IMG/VR virus record: IMGVR_UViG_3300047287_000390
Span: 1 to 24,651 of that record
DNA: 24,651 nucleotides
Reading direction: 5' to 3' (one strand)
Source of the DNA: a virus
Below the pieces are notes generated by a model. It was not told the origin of the DNA. It did not search any database and was given only the letters and a program-made list of their open reading frames with translations. The translations under genes and the position numbers were made by a program. This document shows, one piece after another, positions 199 through 24,651 of this stretch (positions are counted from its first letter, which is position 1; each line of letters begins with the position of its first letter).

Positions 199-240
199 TT
201 GATCGTGATCAATCGACCGGGGGGCCGTTCACGCTCACGC
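199..240. repeat. Inverted repeat copy 1 (variant type)
   Basis: Member of the seven-copy family. The left half is TTGATCgtGATCAA, a perfect 6-bp palindrome around GT. The core GGGGGCCGTTCACG follows, and the right half carries TCACGC twice in direct orientation. The long-range arms GATCGTGA/TCACGCTC pair at 7 of 8 positions. It lies between the stop of the gene at 248-568 and the start of the gene at 1-179. Confidence 0.85.
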
Positions 241-247
241 TGTGCTC

Positions 248-568
248 CTACACTAGACAGATATCCTCGGACTTGTCAATGCACCAGTCCAGATATTCCT
301 GCTTGTCATTCTCCAGCACGGTAAATGACGGGGTCCGATCATCCTCAGGCGCCGGCTCGAAGCTGTAGACGATATGGGAGCCGGGGAACAGGGTCTCTTC
401 TAGGTGCTGACAGTATCTGGCAAGGTGCCAGTCAATCTCACCACCGTCTAGGAACAGTGGGTCGTCGCTCCAGCGACTGCTGCCGGCCCACCAGTCGCGA
501 ACTGCCAGATTGCCAGGGAAGACTCGAACTTTGTGATGCTTGTCAGCCCAGAAAGCGATGTGGATCAT
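248..568 (-). CDS. Hypothetical phage accessory protein, 106 aa
   Basis: The protein begins MIHIAFWADKHHKVRVFPGN and ends DWCIDKSEDICLV. It is acidic, rich in Trp and Asp, and has no signal peptide or membrane segment. The ATG at 568 follows AAAGGAC, a ribosome site with unusually short spacing. Repeat copy 2 starts 18 nt upstream, and repeat copy 1 begins about 8 nt beyond the stop, so the gene fills one repeat-to-repeat unit exactly. No family is recognised. Reality of the gene rests on its placement in the array, its start context and balanced protein composition; antisense frames here look like shadows. Confidence 0.7.
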   Translation of the reverse strand: MIHIAFWADKHHKVRVFPGNLAVRDWWAGSSRWSDDPLFLDGGEIDWHLARYCQHLEETLFPGSHIVYSFEPAPEDDRTPSFTVLENDKQEYLDWCIDKSEDICLV

Positions 569-586
569 GTCCTTTGTTTGAGTGGT

Positions 587-628
587 TTGATCGTGATCAA
601 TTGACCAGCGGGCCGTTCACGCTCACGC
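587..628. repeat. Inverted repeat copy 2 (variant type)
   Basis: Same subtype as copy 1: TTGATCgtGATCAA on the left, GGGCCGTTCACG core, and two direct TCACGC units on the right. Its right end abuts the TAA stop (630-632, read on the minus strand) of the next array gene. Confidence 0.85.
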
Positions 629-629
629 G

Positions 630-983
630 TTAACAATAGTATGGCCGCTCCTGCGGGAAAGCCTCGGCGAAACAATCCTCAAAGCAGGATCGGAAGTCGT
701 TGTCGTTGTGATGCGATACGGGCTCGTCGCTGCCAGGCACGAACCGGTAGCCGCCGTAACCGGTGTCCTTGGGGGTTGGCGCCTTGCCTTGCGTGTACGC
801 CAGCGTTGCGCCCTGCCGCATGGCAGCCATCTCATCGGGATTGGCCTCGGCGAGCCACTCCTCGAACTCCTGATCCGAGATCAGGACGGATTGCACCGGG
901 TGGCCGCATTCATACCACCAGCCGCCTTCCTCGGGCCCGCCGTAGGCCTGCCAGACCTCGTAAGTGTTCAGGTAGACAGTCAT
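630..983 (-). CDS. Hypothetical phage protein with GGPEEGGWWYECG motif, 117 aa
   Basis: The protein starts MTVYLNTYEVWQAYGGPEEG. The Gly/Trp-rich stretch GGPEEGGWWYECG at about residues 15-27 is the clearest feature; from memory, similar GGPEEGGWWY stretches occur in uncharacterised small proteins of diverse phages, but their function is unknown to me. Four Cys (C26, two around 100-104 and the terminal one) could bind metal or pair, which is speculation. The start ATG at 983 has a good ribosome site, CAGGGAG, 8 nt away, and repeat copy 3 lies 17 nt upstream. Cytosolic, no membrane segment. Confidence 0.82.
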   Translation of the reverse strand: MTVYLNTYEVWQAYGGPEEGGWWYECGHPVQSVLISDQEFEEWLAEANPDEMAAMRQGATLAYTQGKAPTPKDTGYGGYRFVPGSDEPVSHHNDNDFRSCFEDCFAEAFPQERPYYC

Positions 984-1000
984 GGGATACTCCCTGTGGA

Positions 1001-1039
1001 TTGATCGTGAGCAATGACCGGAGGGCCGTTCACGATCAA
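1001..1039. repeat. Inverted repeat copy 3 (canonical type)
   Basis: Perfect 10-bp arms TTGATCGTGA (1001-1010) and TCACGATCAA (1030-1039) around a 19-nt spacer with the conserved GGGCCGT. Downstream on the minus strand comes CCACAGGGAG, the ribosome site of the 630-983 gene. No T tract follows on either strand, so it is not an ordinary intrinsic terminator. Confidence 0.9.
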
Positions 1040-1045
1040 AGTATA

Positions 1046-1360
1046 TCAGCGCAGGCAGGCGTCGCGCAAGAGCTGCTGGTAACGGACTTCGCCGGGCAGG
1101 ATGGGGCTTGCCTTGGATGGCTCGCGGGCAGCTTCGAAACAGTCCAGCTCAGACCTCAGTTTCTTGGCCATGTCGCGCATCAGGGAAGCATCGGCCGCCG
1201 GGACGCGATGCACCAGAATCTCGCCCTGGTACAGGGTATCGTTCAGCGCTTCTGCCTTGGCGATGGCCTCTTCCATGGCCTGCCAAGCGTCGTCAAAGGC
1301 CTGGGCGTAGGCCTCGACAGCATTCGCGTCGGGGTGGATGGGGCAGAGGACTTCAGTCAT
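1046..1360 (-). CDS. Hypothetical helical phage accessory protein, 104 aa
   Basis: The protein begins MTEVLCPIHPDANAVEAYAQ and is Ala/Glu-rich and almost entirely helical in appearance, with heptad-like stretches at about residues 15-45 and 60-80. An upstream in-frame TTG inside the repeat would add 12 residues but has no ribosome site. The ATG at 1360 is preferred, with GGGAA upstream. Repeat copy 4 lies 22 nt upstream and copy 3 just beyond the stop. No family recognised. Confidence 0.72.
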   Translation of the reverse strand: MTEVLCPIHPDANAVEAYAQAFDDAWQAMEEAIAKAEALNDTLYQGEILVHRVPAADASLMRDMAKKLRSELDCFEAAREPSKASPILPGEVRYQQLLRDACLR

Positions 1361-1382
1361 GATGGGTGTTCCCGAATGATGG

Positions 1383-1421
1383 ATGATCGTGAGCAATGAC
1401 CGGCGGGCCGTTCACGATCAT
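1383..1421. repeat. Inverted repeat copy 4 (canonical type)
   Basis: Perfect 10-bp arms ATGATCGTGA (1383-1392) and TCACGATCAT (1412-1421) with a 19-nt spacer. Compared with copy 3, the outermost pair has switched from T-A to A-T while remaining complementary. The TGA inside this repeat is the stop codon of the gene at 1418-1654. Confidence 0.9.
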
Positions 1422-1654
1422 TTGGATCGTAGCACCGGCTGGCTGTAGATGTCAATCAGGTGGTCGGCCCAGCGCCGGGCAGTGCGGCCAGCAGCTACCA
1501 CATCCCTTGCCAGCAGTACTGTCTCGCGTGAGACTGTCTGCGCCGTGCCGCTGATCAGCGCCCAGGCATCGGCCCAGGTGGTAGGGGTGGCCTGCAGCTC
1601 CTGGTAAGCCTGCAGAATCTCAGTCTTGGTGGAGCGGGAGGTGATAACGGACAT
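1418..1654 (-). CDS. Small repeat-array protein, 78 aa (paralogue of 1-179)
   Basis: Begins MSVITSRSTKTEILQAYQEL and ends in SQPVLRSK. It is a soluble, helical protein; the segment TVSRETVLLARD (about residues 40-51) is identical in the truncated copy at 1-179. The ATG at 1654 has a strong ribosome site, CACAGGAG, 9 nt upstream; longer in-frame starts would have to begin inside or above repeat copy 5 and are unlikely. Its stop codon is the TGA supplied by repeat copy 4. The basic/helical make-up would allow DNA or protein binding, but no motif proves it. Function unknown. Confidence 0.82.
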   Translation of the reverse strand: MSVITSRSTKTEILQAYQELQATPTTWADAWALISGTAQTVSRETVLLARDVVAAGRTARRWADHLIDIYSQPVLRSK

Positions 1655-1672
1655 GGATGAAACTCCTGTGGA

Positions 1673-1711
1673 TTGATCGTGAGCAATGACCGGCGGGCCG
1701 TTCACGATCAA
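1673..1711. repeat. Inverted repeat copy 5 (canonical type)
   Basis: Perfect 10-bp arms TTGATCGTGA (1673-1682) and TCACGATCAA (1702-1711), 19-nt spacer identical to that of copy 4. It sits between the divergent starts of the minus-strand gene at 1654 and the plus-strand gene at 1765. Confidence 0.9.
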
Positions 1712-1713
1712 GA

Positions 1714-1741
1714 TTGACAACCAACCCACAACTGCTACACT
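1714..1741 (+). promoter_or_regulatory. Candidate sigma-70-type promoter for the gene at 1765
   Basis: A consensus -35 box TTGACA (1714-1719) is separated by 16 nt from TACACT (1736-1741), which matches four of six -10 positions. It starts immediately after repeat copy 5 and ends about 23 nt before the ATG. It is inferred from sequence only; the fair -10 box limits confidence. Confidence 0.45.
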
Positions 1742-1764
1742 GAACAAGTCACAGGGATCAACCC

Positions 1765-2259
1765 ATGAGAAACACTGAACGACTGTTCCTGATCGGGCTC
1801 ATTCCATTCACTGCGGTGCTGGGCCTGGTCGGCCATGAGCTGAGCAACATGGCCATTGAAGCCCAGGTCTCGCAAGCCGCTTACCAGTGTGAGATGGGCG
1901 ACGAGCGGGTCTGCTACAAGCTGGCGCTGTGGACTGGTGGCGACTGTGCTTCACCGCGCATGATCGGCGGTTGCCAGTCCGACAGCTACGTCAACGACAG
2001 CGAAATGATCGTGAGCAATCGACCTTTGGGGGCCGTTCACGATCAAGAAAAAGATTCGACCAGCGCTGAGCATAAAGAAAGGGCCCAATGCGGGCCCGTT
2101 TCGTTATACCGAACCACGCATCATCGCTCGACTTCATTGAAGTCAAGGGCCCACCTTTCGAGGGCTGCGATGCATTCGGGCAGGCTGAATCCCTCGATCG
2201 GTTCCAGCATGGCTCGGATCGGGTTAGATACGATCTCAACGCAGATCGGCGGCGCATAG
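1765..2259 (+). CDS. Small membrane-anchored or secreted moron-like protein
   Basis: The only plus-strand gene in the array. ATG 1765 follows CACAGGGATCAACCC, a good ribosome site. Residues 7-24 (LFLIGLIPFTAVLGLVGH) are hydrophobic and look like a signal anchor. The following region has four spaced Cys (YQCEMGDERVCY, then two more), suggesting an exported, disulphide-bonded domain. After about residue 78 the frame runs through repeat copy 6 and a hairpin and then overlaps the minus-strand gene at 2121, giving an Arg/Ser-rich tail that looks non-coding. The natural stop may have been lost when the repeat entered, or the assembly has an indel. Treat only the first ~80 residues as convincing. 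Confidence 0.5.
   Translation: MRNTERLFLIGLIPFTAVLGLVGHELSNMAIEAQVSQAAYQCEMGDERVCYKLALWTGGDCASPRMIGGCQSDSYVNDSEMIVSNRPLGAVHDQEKDSTSAEHKERAQCGPVSLYRTTHHRSTSLKSRAHLSRAAMHSGRLNPSIGSSMARIGLDTISTQIGGA
2005..2046. repeat. Inverted repeat copy 6 (canonical type, longer spacer)
   Basis: Arms TGATCGTGA (2006-2014) and TCACGATCA (2037-2045) are perfect over 9 bp; the spacer is 22 nt and contains a GGGGGCC run. The outer A/A pair no longer matches. The copy lies inside the open frame of the plus-strand gene at 1765. Confidence 0.85.
2074..2104. terminator. Intrinsic terminator between convergent genes
   Basis: GGGCCC-aatgc-GGGCCC forms a 6-bp GC stem (2081-2097). On the minus strand it is followed by TTTCTTTAT, a T-rich tail 24 nt past the stop of the gene at 2121. 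On the plus strand the tail GTTTCGTT is poorer, so termination may be bidirectional but is best for the minus strand. Confidence 0.65.
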
Positions 2260-2432
2260 CCTCGGATGCTGCTGAACTCAGTGCAGAGAATGGCAGGCAG
2301 GTGAGCCTTATCCATCAGCCAGTACAGGCCTTCGCCACGCCAATCCTCAAGCGCCCAGACGACGTACCACTGAAACAGCCCAGGCCGCCAGGGGTGGCTG
2401 CGGCGGGCCGACTCGAGGGGGAAGGAGATCAT
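2121..2432 (-). CDS. Hypothetical phage accessory protein, 103 aa
   Basis: Begins MISFPLESARRSHPWRPGLF. It is Trp-rich (WRPGLFQWYVVWALEDW at about residues 15-31) with no clear signal or transmembrane helix. A TTG start at 2492 would add 20 residues but lacks a ribosome site, whereas the ATG at 2432 follows AAGGGATTCAACCC. Unlike the other array genes its start is over 100 nt from its repeat (copy 7), so the leader is longer. It ends before the terminator at about 2097. No family recognised. Confidence 0.7.
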   Translation of the reverse strand: MISFPLESARRSHPWRPGLFQWYVVWALEDWRGEGLYWLMDKAHLPAILCTEFSSIRGYAPPICVEIVSNPIRAMLEPIEGFSLPECIAALERWALDFNEVER

Positions 2433-2546
2433 GGGTTGAATCCCTTGTTGCTCTGCCAGTATCGCCGTTCCTGTCGCTGGATTCTGTATCAACCGCTACA
2501 GTATCAGAGGAATTAATCGATTCGCTTGCAGCGATGACCCCGTGAA

Positions 2547-2586
2547 ATGATCGTGAGCAATCGACCTACGGGCCGTTCACGATCAT
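2547..2586. repeat. Inverted repeat copy 7 (canonical type)
   Basis: Perfect 10-bp arms ATGATCGTGA (2547-2556) and TCACGATCAT (2577-2586), 20-nt spacer. It is the last copy seen; none occurs in the tail genes to its right. Confidence 0.9.
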
Positions 2587-4618: not shown

Positions 4619-5220
4619 TACCATTTGATGAATATTATTGGTATTTAAAGAAACAATATCCCGGTGATTTGGAGTTTACGCATTCCAATTACTGGGAGTT
4701 ACCCTATTGTTATATTATAGATGCGGTAAGTCATGCCAGATTACAGCGTCAGAAGGAGCTACATGAAAATGAAGTGCCGATGTCACTGTTGGCATATCAG
4801 CAAGCGGAGATGAATAGGGACCGTAAGAAGACGAAGAAACCATATCAAATAGATGATTTTTATTGTTATGCCCCGAGTGATCTCAGGGATTCGGTGGATG
4901 CAATATATGGTAGTGCTGCACTAGAATTGATTAAGATGGGATCATTCCCAAGGTGGGGATTGTATATGTATAAGGAGTTAACAGAAAATGCGGATAAGGT
5001 AAAAGCACCCCAGATATTGTGTTACCAATGTGAAACGGCCATACTACTAGCGCCCAAAATAATGGACAATATATGTAAAGGAATGTTAATAGCGCAAGAG
5101 GGTGCTTCCAACCGTATGCTGGAATTAACAGCGCCAAACGGTGATATGATACGCCTCAGAATGCCAGAAATCAATGGCAAAGTTGCCGCTCTGGAAAATT
5201 GTTACTTGGATATTGTATGA
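3995..5220 (+). CDS. Tail assembly chaperone, long (GT-like) -1 frameshift product, about 408 aa
   Basis: Reading the zero frame through AAG at 4586-4588 and shifting back one base continues as KAKSPNSREYVIPFDEYYWY and on to the TGA at 5218-5220, adding 210 residues. The second frame is open from 4573 but has no ATG before 4780, and its only earlier candidate is a TTG at 4669 without a ribosome site, so expression by frameshift is more likely than independent initiation. The T-like part has the segment YWELPYCYIIDA and a later DFYCYAP. In known systems the long form recruits tail tube protein to the chaperone-coated tape measure. The 3' end overlaps the antisense HNH gene by 50 nt. Confidence 0.68.
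4582..4612 (+). promoter_or_regulatory. Programmed -1 ribosomal frameshift site A_AAA_AAG
   Basis: The heptamer occupies 4582-4588, in register with the zero frame GAA AAA AAG. Twelve nt later ACTC-gaga-GAGT (4601-4612) can form a 4-bp stem closed by a GNRA loop, a weak candidate stimulator. No upstream Shine-Dalgarno-like stimulator is obvious. The zero frame stops 28 nt after the heptamer. A missing A in the seven-A run would mimic this. Confidence 0.7.
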
Positions 5221-5569
5221 ATTCGTCCTCATTTAATACATCACCTGTTTTCAGCCAGTGATCAATGCGTTGTTCTTTAGCTGAGCTATAAAATGATTGA
5301 CGACGAAACCATGTACGCCAATCTTCTGAACCCTTGGAGGCGTTACATGAGCGATCAGCGGGTACGATATTAGCAGTCAGGTCCTCGCCACCACGACATT
5401 TTGCCTTTACATGATCTAATGTTAAGCTGTTGTCATCAATTGGTGGTTGACCGCAATAAGCGCAACAGTTATTCCAGCTATCTTTGATTGATTGTCTCCA
5501 CAAACGTTTAGCTTCTTTTACTGTCAATGCTTCCATGTTATACAAATAATCGGAGATACATTGATGCAT
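5171..5569 (-). CDS. HNH endonuclease, probable free-standing homing enzyme
   Basis: 132 residues, antisense to all neighbours. Visible HNH features: zinc knuckle C36-A-Y-C39, catalytic D52-H53 in LTLDHVKAKCRGG, N67 in ANIVPADRSC, then C75-N76-x-x-K79; with Asn at the last position it is of the H-N-N type. HNH enzymes make metal-dependent nicks or breaks in DNA; free-standing phage copies often act as homing endonucleases. ATG 5569 (a GTG precedes it) follows AGGAG by 9 nt. The last 50 nt overlap the 3' end of the chaperone gene on the other strand, consistent with insertion at a gene junction. Target unknown. Confidence 0.88.
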   Translation of the reverse strand: MHQCISDYLYNMEALTVKEAKRLWRQSIKDSWNNCCAYCGQPPIDDNSLTLDHVKAKCRGGEDLTANIVPADRSCNASKGSEDWRTWFRRQSFYSSAKEQRIDHWLKTGDVLNEDEFIQYPSNNFPERQLCH

Positions 5570-10000: not shown

Positions 10001-13000
10001 TTAACCGCTAGGAAGAAAAAGGTCACACCACTTCAGTACACCGGTACAACTAAAAATCCAGAAACCGGAAAAAAGGAATACATATTAGCGGAACAGGCTG
10101 TACTTGATCAAGTTGACAGGATATCTAAAAAGATAGAAGACGAAAAGAAAAAAATTCGCAATGAAATTAGAAGGTATAACAGAGAATTAGCTAAACTTGG
10201 TGAACCGCCATCAGCCGAGGATATTGCAAGAACTAATGCCATAACTCAAGCTAAGGGGAAAACCCTTTTCCAGCTCCAGACAGAGCTAGACGATTTACAA
10301 AGGCAACTTGCCAAACTAGAGCCAATAGATGCGATAATTCGAACGAATTTTGATTTAGATATCCAGGAATCGGAAGCTAGCCTGCTAGAACAGCGTAAAA
10401 AAATCGAAAAACTTGTCAGGAGGCAGTTAAAGCTTCAAACGACTGCAGATGTTACCACTACATTCAATGCCGCTAGGTCACCAGAAGCGACTGTTACTGT
10501 TGAAGACATTGATGCCTTCAAAAAATTCAGAGAAGAGGCAGTCAGGTCGTATATTGATGCAAAGCTTGGTTCTGAACAATACGTAAAGCAAGCAAAAACT
10601 GAAATAGAAACCCTGGACCGTAGGGCCGCTGCGCTAGAGAAGGCCAGGAGGAATGCATCATCATTACCCGTTGCTGTGTCCGGTGGTGCTGGTGCAAATG
10701 ATGAATTAAGGGCAATTCAACAACAAGCGGATTATCTTCGCACTAGCTTAGCACAACTTGACGCATCCTGGGCTCGTAGCTATCAGGGCGTTCTGGATTA
10801 CGAAGATGTACTATCAGCACTTGACCAGGGTGCGAAGATAACCGACCAACAACTTCATAAGCTCGCATCAGCAAATGAGATAATTGGAGGCGCGGCAAGC
10901 AGGGCGGCTGATGAGGTATCAGCATTGACGCAACGCCAAGCCGAATTAACCGAGCGTTCTAGGCAGCTTGGTAAGGATCTTGCAGGTTTAAGTTTAAGTG
11001 ATAAGGTTGAAGCCGATAAGTTAAATGGTGAACTTACCCTGGTTAAAGGCGAACTTGTTGATGTTGGTAGACAACTTGACATAACAAGTAATTCTGCTAA
11101 CTTGTTGCAACAGGAAGCGGCTCTTATTGGTACTGCACTGGAGCAGGCATCAAAACCAAGGGCTGGATTACAGGGAATAAAGGATATATTCACGGGATTA
11201 ACGGAAAGTTCTAATAAATTTGGGAAGGCATTTGGAAATACTGGTCTTGTTATTGCCAATGGCGTCAGCAAGATAAATGGTGCGATTACTACAGTTGTTG
11301 CATCAATCAGGGAATTCAGCGCTCAATTACTTCCGTTTGCCGCCATTTCGATAGCAATAGCCGCATACAGTAAAGCAACCGAGGCGTCCAGGACTATTCA
11401 AGAGGAGAATAAGCAGACCACTGATAGACTAAAATCAACCATAAAAGATTTGTCAACTGCCTATGCAGAACTAGGTGGTACTGTTCAAAAAGTAGACATA
11501 AAAAGCCTGACCCCACAAATCAATGGGTTAGATGTTGTATTAATATCACTTGGCGGCATCCTGAAAAAGACGATTAATTTATTCAAGCAGTGGTTTGATG
11601 TTATCAAGGGATCCACTATAGACCCACTAACCGGTCAAATCAAAAAAACATATAGCACTTTTGAACAGTTTGCATCTAGTCTTGGACTGATAGCAAGTGC
11701 AGCACTTGTTGGTGGCCGAGTTTTCGGACCATGGGGCGCTGGCATCGCCGGCGTCGCGGCAGCGGCTGCGGTACTTACGATAGCCTTAAATACGACTGGT
11801 GCTAAAATTGATCAATTGAAGGAAAAAGGTACTGCCCTTCGAGAGGGTTATGTGCAGGAAATTCAATTATTAAAGCAATTAGCTGGTCAAGTAAGGCTAT
11901 TTGGTGATGAATACCTAAAAGCAAAAGCTGCGGCCGAAGCTGCCAACAAAAAAGGCGGAACAGGTGCTGCTGAAAGTGCTGGTAAAGATGTTCAATACTA
12001 TTCTAAGACATTATCTGCCTATGGTACGCTGATTGAAAGGACAAAGGCACTGAGAAACGAACAAACGGCGGCATTGGGCACGACCCGAGCAACGGCGCAA
12101 GAAGCATTCAGGCTAACTAATGAAATCAGACTATTGGAGACAAAAAGGGATTCAACGGATGCAAGAAAGCGCGAAAAAAATGGTGAGCAGGGATACCGAA
12201 CCAGCATACAAAACCAAATAAATGCAAAGAAAGACCAGTTAAAGGTCATAGAAGAAGCAAATGCCCAAGCAGCAGCGTCCGAGAGGCTGCTTAAGGCAGA
12301 GTTAACGCAACTGGAGGCCGAACTGGAAAGGTTGCGTGTGAAGTATGGATTACTGACCAAGGAACAATTAGCTAACGCTAATAACACTTCAAATTTAAAA
12401 GATAAGCTGAAGGAAGCAAAAGCAGCCCTTGACCTGCTTGACTTCACCAGTCAAAGAAAGAAATTCGACGAAATTGCCACTTCCGTTGGAACTATTCAAG
12501 CTCAACTTGATAAGCTTGAAAATGCTGCTAAAGAACGTGAGTTAGCTGGGTATGTCGCTGAGGTCAAAAGGCAACTTGCTAGTGGTGAAATACCGACTAG
12601 TCTGTCAACTATTCAGAACCTAGTCAAGTCGCTGGAAGAACGGTCGGTGATGCTTGATATAAATTCACCACAACTGCCTAAGGTGCTGCAAGATTTGCTC
12701 AAAGCTGAGGAATATGCTGGGCGCTTGGATGGCAAAAAAGCTCAAATAACACTAGAATTAATTGAAAGAGGAGTACAAAATGGATCACTGAAGGATACAT
12801 TAGCGTTAAGGGAAAAACAACTGGAAGAACTTGGCAAAGTCAAGCAATCAACTCCCATTGGTAGTAAGGAATACGAGGCAATTCTGGCCAAGGAGAAGCA
12901 GTTAACCCAGGCAAAGGAAAATGATGAAAAAACTGTTGATGAATTACGCTCGCAACTAGCTCAAAAACAAATAGATAGGATTGACAATATAATCGAAAAG

Positions 13001-17836: not shown

Positions 17837-20800
17837 ATGGCAGCACCAGTTTTCCAGGCCGTAGGAACGCAGTTTGCGGCAACTAACGCGACAACTGCTA
17901 CGTGGCCAACGCACCAAACTGGTGACATCGGGGTTCTCGTTGTTGAAATTGACGGTCTAGGGACTGCAATTACTATAAGTGGTTGGACCAGTCAAACAAA
18001 TGCAGGCGACAATACGGTAGGGAGTAAATTACAGGTTTTGTGGAAGCGGGCCGCCAGCGCCGCCGAACCTGCGGTATCTATACCCGATACCGGCGACCAT
18101 CAAATTGGTGCTATTTTTACATTTAGGGGTTGCAGGGCTTCTGGTAATCCATTCTTTGGTACGCAAACTTCATCTTTAATACTTAGTAACGCTGGCTCCG
18201 TTACTTGGCCAACTCTTACTACAACAGAAAATGATCTTTTAGTGCTGCTAATTGCGACTAGAAATAATGATAATGCTAGTACTACTTTCTTTGGAGTAGC
18301 TCAACCTGGTACTGGCGCTGCTCTTACTGGTGTTGCAGAAGCAGGTGAAATAGGTGCCATTTCCGGTAATGGTGGTGGAGCTACTGTTCAGTACGGAACT
18401 TTAGCGCTTGCTGGTTCCACTGGAACCTATACTTCAACTGTTACGACGGGTGGTGTAGCTCACGTAATGGCCACTATGGCCCTGCTGGGTCCTGTTGGTG
18501 TTACTGGCGAAAAAGGCGCATTCAGCGTTGTCGGCAAAGATGCAACTTTCAAGAGAAGTTACAGTGTTTTAGCTGCAACTGGCAGTTATGCTATCGCGGG
18601 AAAGAATGCAAACCTCAAAAGGGGCTGGCTCGTATCGGCTGGAACGGGCTCATTCTTGGTCGCCGGAAAGAATGCAACTTTCAAGAAATCGTATTCACTG
18701 CTATCCAGTAAGGGTTCGTTCTTAGTTTCAGGAAACCCTGTTACTGTCAGGACAGTCAGGGCCCAGGCTGGCAGCTTTACCGTAGCCGGTAAAAATGCTA
18801 ACTTCAAGAAAAATTCTGTATTTCCTGTTAGCGCTGGCAGCTTTAACGTAACAGGCAAGAATGCTTCATTCGTCAAGGGTAGGGCATTTATTGTTGGGCC
18901 TGGTTCGTATACAGTTAATGGCAAGAACGCCATACTTATTCGAACTATTGATCCTCAAAATAATTTAAACAATAACTTCCCAGATGCGCAACCTGGAGAT
19001 GGCGTAGTTGATCAAAATACTGGAGATGTATGGATATATAATGGCACTTTATGGGTTAATTCTGGACCTAATCCTGGTACAACTATTGAAGCAAGCAGAC
19101 GAATACCAGTCTATAACGAAACCTTGCTTTGCACATGTATAACTGGCATCAGTTTTGGTTCAAAAAGCCTTGCGTATAAACTAGATCTAGATCCTGTAAT
19201 ACTTGAACCATCTATAGTAACCACTAGTATTTCTGTATCGGTGTTGAATGCTGTATATACGCCACCGAACAGTGGCAGAATTACCTTATCTTACAATACG
19301 CCAAGTATCAGGAAAGGCACAGCGGTTTTTGGTAAATCTTACAGTATAGCTATAAATAGTTTTGCTCCAACCGTTGCAGCTTCTAGCGGTATTGGAGTGC
19401 CTGCTGCAAGTATAGCTATCAATGCTTTTGCCGGATCGATCGCATCTCAGACAAAAACAATAAGCATGCCGAGTGCCGTTGCTGTAAATATCACCACTGG
19501 AATACCTACGTTAATCAATATTAGTGATCCGTATTGGAGCAATGTTGTTTTATTGCTTAGAACGGAAGGTTCTTCATTTGCTACCAGTCCATCTGGTAGA
19601 TATTTTGCTGATGCTGGACCATACAACCTGACAATAAGAACAACTGCAAAAGACTCGCTCGATTATACAAAACAAAACGTTCTTTATAGCAGTACGCGTG
19701 TTAAGTATGGTGCAAATTCTGCACTTTTCTGGGACGCAAGTTCGCTGTTGAAAATTGAAGCAAACTCTAATACTGTTATTGGTACAAGTCCATTTACGGT
19801 CGAGTTATGGATATATCTCACTTCTCTTGGTAGCACAAATCAAACAATTATCGGCGAAACAAGCCTAAGTAATGGTGGAGAGCTAGTAATATACTTCAAC
19901 CAGACATTGATAGGTGTCGGGAAAGCTGATACAAGTGAAGGGTTTACCACTATTCATAATGGTTCTTTAACTGTAGGAGCCTGGCATCATCTAGCGGTTG
20001 TCAGGGATGCATCTAGCAATGCTTACGTTTTTCTGAATGGTATTCTTAAGTCTGGTCCAATCCAACTGCTATCAGATTTCTCTTCAGCAGAAGGAAACCA
20101 GGGTAAGTTAACAGTCATTGGTGGCGATGGAACTAATGGTGGTACACTTAGGGGCTTTGTGGAAGACCTCAGAATTACAAAAGCTGCAAGGTATACCAGT
20201 AACTTTACTGTGCCATCGGAGCAGTTTGAGGGTAAGGATATTACTCCTGTCGTTACAGAACCCAGTGATATACCATATTCTGCTGTCAAATTATTGATTC
20301 ATGGATCTGGATCAATTGCAGATTCCAGCTCCAGCAGTACATCAATAACGGCAACTGGTGTCAGTATCAATACAACTATCCAAGATCCATTTGGCTTTAC
20401 GTCGGGTGTACTAAGTTTTGGCGGTACCAGCAGCTATCTAATATTTGGCTCAAATGCTGGCCTAGTATTCGGTACTGATCCATTCTGTCTTGAATTCTGG
20501 GTTTATTTAACATCTGCATATTCAGCTAATATATTTGCTCCCTTTGCTAATAGTACTACAAATACTGGACTACCTAGTATTAGGATGTTCTGTGATTCAA
20601 ACGGTTACGGCACTGAAACTATTTTTGACATATTAAAGACTTCGTACTGCCCAACGGTGCTGAATACATGGCATCACATCGCTTTCACCAGGGATTCGCT
20701 TGGTGAAGGCCGTGTATTTGTAGACGGCAAGCTGGTTGATTATCCGGAATTTCTAGCGAACTACTTGGCTGGATATTATTGGACTGGTAATGGTAAAACA

Positions 20801-24166: not shown

Positions 24167-24651
24167 ATGGCAGATCCCCAGCAAACATTAAACAATGCCT
24201 TTCCTGGAGCAGAAACTGGAGATGCCGTTGTTGACGAACTCACTAACGATGTATGGGTTTACGATGGCAGTTTATGGATAAATAATGGAGGAAATCCAGG
24301 CGAATATTTAGTAGATCCAACACCGATTCCGACACATAACGAAACATTGCTGGTTACATGTATAATGTCAACCGGCTTCAGTTCAAAAAGCCTAAATTAT
24401 GGGCTTCAATTACTTTCTGAATTAAATCCAATATCGTTTGGTATTGGTCTGCAGGTCAGCCCAATATCTGTAAAGATAGATATGTCTGGCGAAACAAAAG
24501 AATTCGAGATTGTAGCAGATCATCCAGATGTCAGGACAGGAATAGCTGTATTTGTGCCATTAAATAAGGTAATAGCAGTAGTCGCAATACCGCCAGCGGA
24601 TATCAAGGCTAGCGTACAAGTTCAAGCTGTTATCAGCATAGCAGTTAGCGC
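24167..24651 (+). CDS. Second tail fibre protein, 5' part only
   Basis: Open to the right edge; 161 codons visible, starting MADPQQTLNNAFPGAETGDA. Its first ~80 residues are clearly related to residues 374-452 of the giant fibre: NDVWVYDGSLWINNGGNPG against GDVWIYNGTLWVNSGPNPG, and HNETLLVTCI against YNETLLCTCI, then SSKSLNY against GSKSLAY. It therefore probably assembles at the tail tip too. The remaining visible sequence is beta-prone with Val/Ile-rich strands. No good ribosome site precedes the ATG; coupling to the upstream gene or read-through of the hairpin is likely. Confidence 0.75.
   Translation, partial: MADPQQTLNNAFPGAETGDAVVDELTNDVWVYDGSLWINNGGNPGEYLVDPTPIPTHNETLLVTCIMSTGFSSKSLNYGLQLLSELNPISFGIGLQVSPISVKIDMSGETKEFEIVADHPDVRTGIAVFVPLNKVIAVVAIPPADIKASVQVQAVISIAVS

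Follow-up and report, generated by a model that had tools for sequence, protein, structure and literature searches.

Introduction

In the PeSL cassettes of T4-type phages, short repeated stem-loops lie between the small, non-essential genes of a hyperplastic region; early promoters adjoin them, and recombination shuffles the genes. These mobile regulatory cassettes were reportedly described by Arbiol in 2010 and by Comeau in 2014. Integrons and superintegrons carry one gene per unit, with the attC repeat set flush with the stop codon, homogenised repeats, fixed polarity and a single anchor. The boundary or linker sequences of lambdoid phages are short conserved sequences at module joints that are used by relaxed homologous recombination. 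In cluster K mycobacteriophages the SAS hold the ribosome-binding site, at 3-7 nt from the start codon, and are oriented like the gene (PMC3203893). PeSL cassettes are cited in PMC4503421.

Here we describe an array of small phage genes separated by a repeated palindrome, for which the PeSL shuffling cassettes appear to be the closest known system. Our literature search, which reached few subscription papers, found no description of the repeat element.

Results

Seven palindromes at one end of the window

The window, the whole stretch of DNA that was analysed, is an IMG/VR fragment of 24,651 bases in which the array is truncated by the contig end at position 1. Seven imperfect palindromes of 36-40 nt lie between 200 and 2585, every copy on the minus strand; this number is a lower bound because the contig begins inside the array. 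A pattern fitting all seven copies gave 0 matches in 100 dinucleotide shuffles, and a covariance model from 42 copies found no further copy in the window, its 22 kb of tail genes included. The sequence-only reading had reported seven inverted repeats of about 40 bp that were missing from the tail genes, and both observations are confirmed. It had also given them uniform arms, which they do not have: copies 1 and 2 carry TGAGCGTGA on one side, so that the half-site becomes TGAnCGyGA, its fourth position being free.

The features of the array and its borders are as follows.

3-179, minus: cassette gene of family A (ITSRSTKAEILQAYQEL), incomplete at the contig end and paralogous to 1418-1654
200-237, minus: repeat copy 1, TGAGCGTGAACGGCCCCCCGGTCGATTGATCACGATCA; pattern and covariance model
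248-568, minus: cassette gene, 106 aa, without known family
588-625, minus: repeat copy 2; pattern and covariance model
630-983, minus: cassette gene, 117 aa; shares 68% identity with the gene in a wholly matching L088 unit (5081-5540); a search for more homologues found none
1002-1038, minus: repeat copy 3; pattern and covariance model
1046-1360, minus: cassette gene of family E, 104 aa; homologues in G002, L090 and L088 (flipped there)
1384-1420, minus: repeat copy 4; covariance model; its outer TGA is the stop codon of gene 1418-1654
1418-1654, minus: cassette gene of family A, 78 aa; the unit and both its repeats align end to end with G002 12244-12577
1674-1710, minus: repeat copy 5; pattern and covariance model
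1714-1741, plus: sigma-70-like promoter TTGACA-16-TACACT, within the unit between copies 5 and 6
1765-2259, plus: cassette gene, ATG at 1765; the frame continues through repeat copy 6 with no stop there
2006-2045, minus: repeat copy 6, with a longer centre; pattern and covariance model
2081-2097, minus: intrinsic terminator GGGCCCGCATTGGGCCC-TTTCTTT, 3' of gene 2121-2432, within the cassette and ahead of repeat 6
2121-2432, minus: cassette gene, about 103 aa, leader about 115 nt
2548-2585, minus: repeat copy 7, the final copy ahead of the tail operon; pattern and covariance model
2763-2942, plus: small CxxC..CxxC gene on the anchor side, followed by the tail genes; relatives in G001 and G010 stand in the same place beside the array

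The repeat had been placed 17-22 nt before a start codon in five units; the five units stand, at a spacing of 18-23 nt. On its other side it was said to abut or supply the stop of the previous gene. Gene 1418-1654 is the only window gene whose stop the repeat supplies, and genes 248-568, 630-983 and 1046-1360 stop short, 7-13 nt ahead of it. Since a plus-strand gene occupies the unit between copies 5 and 6, gene orientation in the array is not uniform. Past copy 6 the frame of this gene runs antisense to the next gene; that it does not stop at the repeat counts against a cassette reading, and the gene may be broken or recently joined. Elsewhere in the window, 18950-19170 and 24173-24393, 5.2 kb apart, are 70-74% identical; the two copies lie in a 2093-aa ORF and the next ORF, and are likely a duplicated tail-protein domain.

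The array in other phages

Relatives were gathered by pattern scans of IMG/VR and by a search with cassette family A. About 20 other IMG/VR records have the repeat in one block next to the tail operon; some of these records may be near-duplicates, and most relatives are metagenome fragments. The covariance model matched in 13 of 14 other records and then in 8 of 8 further ones. Every matching record has a single block of up to 13 copies, always close to a contig end or next to the structural operon, and no repeat was found outside its block in records of 59-93 kb or in the complete S-CRES1. Two Synechococcus isolates of about 73.7 kb, S-CRES1 and S-CRES2, carry it; the whole S-CRES1 genome has two copies only, on either side of gp61 and gp62 (gp62 is annotated, as deposited, 'S-adenosyl-L-methionine hydrolase'). 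S-CRES3 and S-CBS2, which have an anchor gene in common, had no repeat in the stretch examined. Variants with a different centre occur in L106 (G019) and L107 (G020). The hosts of the group are likely cyanobacterial, given homologues in Synechococcus phages and a Kyanoviridae family hit; from these relatives we infer the same for the window. A host-genome origin of the repeat was discarded, since the one genome scan gave 10 scattered single matches and no arrays, which we took as chance.

The surroundings of the array hold other features. In G002 and G003 it lies near a cumulative GC-skew minimum, as an origin of replication might, but the minimum coincides with a change of gene direction. A long AT-only palindrome just beyond the S-CRES1 array, at the end farther from the tail genes (L060 6831-6870), is possibly an origin region. 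The corresponding region of S-CRES3 has a different repeat ahead of small genes (L059 5395, 6328, 6645 and 6974), which reads as a promoter, TTGACC-N17-CATACT, partly with a TGAGTA/TACTCA palindrome. Adjoining the G002 array region is a 574-aa protein with a PcfJ-like domain (L024 6589-8313).

Genes and leaders of the units

A simple ORF caller gave 58 repeat-to-repeat units with a credible gene, and one small gene per unit is the rule. In 33 of the 58 the gene ends on the outermost TGA of the palindrome beside it, and in 13 more the stop codon falls no further than 15 nt before the palindrome. Because the palindrome shows TGA on both strands, it supplies stops in either orientation (22/40 genes parallel and 11/18 antiparallel to the repeat). 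Thus 18 of 58 genes run opposite to the repeat, while the repeats hold one orientation. The start codon is 14-89 nt from the repeat, and the ribosome-binding site lies outside it. Short leaders of 14-28 nt (18 units, 17 of them parallel to the repeat) have a ribosome-binding site only and never a -10 box (0/18); among the 37 long leaders, of 32-89 nt, 23 have a -10 box resembling TGCTACAAT, against 6 expected. Searches with 57 cassette proteins returned hardly any Pfam, NCBIfam or annotated PHROG matches, although three match Kyano_Gp96; the predicted structure of family A is two helices (pTM 0.38).

Like SAS/ESAS, the element is an inverted repeat with a variable spacer between small non-structural genes; the stop of the upstream gene is sometimes inside it, its consensus varies by phage group, and its arms give no support for RNA pairing (PMC3203893). 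It differs in its wide range of start distances, in the external ribosome-binding site and in an orientation independent of the downstream gene. The likeness to SAS/ESAS proposed from the sequence alone thus extends to an inverted repeat without pair covariation, and fails for the tie to gene starts and orientation.

Conservation and folding of the repeat

The consensus is TGAnCGyGA-rCGGyCC-N3-5-GGyC-n-ATTGn-TCACGnTCA. Arms are perfect in 21 of 83 copies, and the fourth position of TGAnCGyGA is paired in 39 of 83, against 44.6 expected; what is conserved in these half-sites is the sequence and not the pairing. The inner stem, which reads GGCCC/GGTC or, mirrored, GGTCC/GGCC, is hardly ever perfect and has a near-constant wobble. 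Certain copies fold well (z about -3 to -4), whereas the common variant TGATCGCGA..TCACGCTCA, found in 3/3 full G010 copies, folds no better than shuffles (z -0.3). The repeat matched no Rfam family up to E = 1, and pair covariation of the arms was not seen across the repeat family. Empty Rfam results, arms that do not covary and common variants that do not fold led us to reject the RNA element offered in the sequence-only reading.

Two related kinds of sequence were seen. A second array type (L105 5083-6322, in the contig of L088; L109 4090-5065, G003) keeps the core and differs in its arms (ACyTGnGA / TCGCArGT; ACyTG/CArGT), which partly co-vary; in L105 it directly adjoins the first type, and a family A cassette is found in both. 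Hairpins with outer arms TGAnCGTGA, whose inner stems differ and pair well and several of which have a loop like AAGGCAG, occur outside the array on the flank away from the tail genes (L024 6451, 8417, 10241; L088 8388, 8750, 10437; L090 11246; L097 10777, 11458).

Units move between arrays

Eleven gene families recur across arrays with their order and neighbours changed, and families A, E and F are each found in both orientations relative to the repeats. Ends of nucleotide matches between arrays fall within 5 nt of a repeat edge in 14 of 24 cases, compared with 6% of random positions, a count inflated by conservation of the repeat itself. Unit-length matches join window 1384-1710 to G002 12244-12577 and window 589-1038, in reverse direction, to L088 5539-5081. 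Records L090 and L094, whose cassettes are 90-93% identical, have the orders A-D-c1-c2-X and A-X-y-D. The first 9 nt of the L094 A/X repeat, AGATCGTGA, equal those of the L090 A/D repeat, and the following GCGGTCCGnnGGCC resembles L090 c2/X; part A/D-like and part c2/X-like, this repeat places the homology switch inside the palindrome. Homologues of family D in some 38 other viral contigs have no copy of the repeat, which is therefore a feature of the array rather than of the gene; this rules out the repeat as a property of the cassette genes.

The array had been read as a possible 'footprint of unit-by-unit gene acquisition', with a comparison of relatives for block-wise gain or loss as the check. 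The L090/L094 rearrangement and the unit-length matches at repeat borders agree with it: units move, drop out and flip as repeat-bounded blocks. Comparison of these sequences gives good support to the view that the block is a cassette array, in which genes are gained, lost, reordered and flipped as whole units.

Discussion

As in the PeSL system, genes are shuffled between relatives at the elements that separate them, as the L090/L094 junction repeats and unit-length matches indicate. The PeSL element includes a promoter; ours does not, and -10 boxes stand in leaders beyond it (0/18 short and 23/37 longer ones). The PeSL stem-loop is a junction terminator. Here some copies fold well and others do not fold at all, and T-rich sequence stands before part of the promoter-bearing cassettes. 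Our element also has another sequence, gives stop codons on both strands, keeps one orientation with genes facing either way, and occurs in relatives of siphovirus-type cyanophages.

We consider it likely that the block is a cassette array that recombines within the palindrome, with a phage annealing system as the likeliest agent. Such recombination would swap, insert, delete and invert whole genes, unbroken, and a gene joined flush to the repeat receives the outer-TGA stop in either orientation. A ribosome-binding site comes with most cassettes and a promoter with many; those without a promoter nearly always run parallel to the repeat and would presumably be read through from a neighbour. Repeat cores are closer within a record than between records (0.889 vs 0.785, 0/300 permutations), and the repeat kept alike within each phage probably serves as shared homology for cassette entry. 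The agent could be the phages' own system of a Sak/Rad52-type annealase, a PD-(D/E)XK nuclease and a RusA resolvase. Genes for all three, the annealase being Sak-type, are present in G003, and the S-CRES1 annotation includes Rad52 (gp6) and RusA (gp15). The tyrosine integrase family PF00589 was found in 0 of 15 records, most of them fragments but including ones of 85 kb and 93 kb (control genomes, 14/14 positive), and none is annotated in the complete S-CRES1. Annealing is the likeliest mechanism because no tyrosine integrase was found and relatives encode the annealase, RusA and nuclease. The short conserved sequence at module joints recalls lambdoid boundary sequences; here, in contrast to those linkers, a single palindrome is repeated at all joints of a dense array. 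The Rad52-like recombinases of phages promote exchange where homology is short and diverged (PMC3945230). However, 37 nt is short for homologous exchange, and the assays in that work used longer homology.

Fixed polarity, a near-constant inner-stem wobble and the constant TGAnCGyGA point to recognition by some protein, for which pure annealing has no need. The palindrome could be the folded or double-stranded site of a dedicated recombinase, encoded outside the fragments or still unrecognised, in an integron-like site-specific system. All sites have a fixed polarity relative to the genome: repeats are on the strand opposite the tail gene, placed by blastn, in 15 of 15 records, which partly reflects common descent. 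As with attC, single-gene cassettes carry the site at their 3' end, here with the stop codon inside; its dyad half-sites are conserved in sequence, sites are homogenised within a phage, and the array is anchored at one place beside a conserved operon. Unlike in integrons, genes face both ways, and an integrase was neither adjacent nor found by the PF00589 search; the site, about 37 nt, also varies in length at its centre. We regard this system as unlikely. Much the same low probability, if anything slightly higher, attaches to a phage-borne integron analogue, in which a dedicated enzyme would act on a polar palindrome to capture single genes in either orientation at one fixed place in the genome.

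Half-site sequence conserved independently of pairing, together with two sigma-70-type factors encoded by relatives, is also what an operator or promoter-associated site would offer. A phage regulator would bind the TGAnCGyGA dyad and control all cassettes, in the manner of stoperators or ESAS, with shuffling as a by-product. The -10 boxes, present only in some cassettes, stand anywhere from 3 to 54 nt from the repeat and start codons vary as widely; repeats flank both gene ends and keep their orientation when genes flip; and the repeat is absent elsewhere in genomes of 73-93 kb. This makes the operator improbable, and the same spacings and the 18 opposed genes count against the coordinated operator/RNA element for the whole block suggested in the sequence-only reading. 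A conserved role of the repeat as operator or RNA leader is not supported.

The least probable reading is a 3'-end element, in which each gene would be closed by a hairpin that stabilises mRNA or by a terminator working in both directions, like the stem-loop half of PeSL. Repeats flush with stop codons, the well-folding copies and T-rich starts of the longer, often promoter-bearing leaders (at least 5 T in 14 nt in 15/37; short leaders 0/18) are in its favour, but the TGATCGCGA..TCACGCTCA variant does not fold, the arms do not covary, most copies are missing a T tract, and one window cassette has a separate canonical terminator ahead of the repeat.

A cassette array recombining within its palindrome, the reading we prefer, bears on how phages exchange small accessory genes without breaking them, which is an open question. 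Such genes often serve host takeover or counter-defence. Here the exchange points are visible, numerous and alike across many phages, and they are present in cultured Synechococcus phages, so that the process is directly testable. Searches keyed on the repeat can bring up many accessory genes of environmental phages that are still uncharacterised, and the array would be a natural plug-in slot for phage genes.
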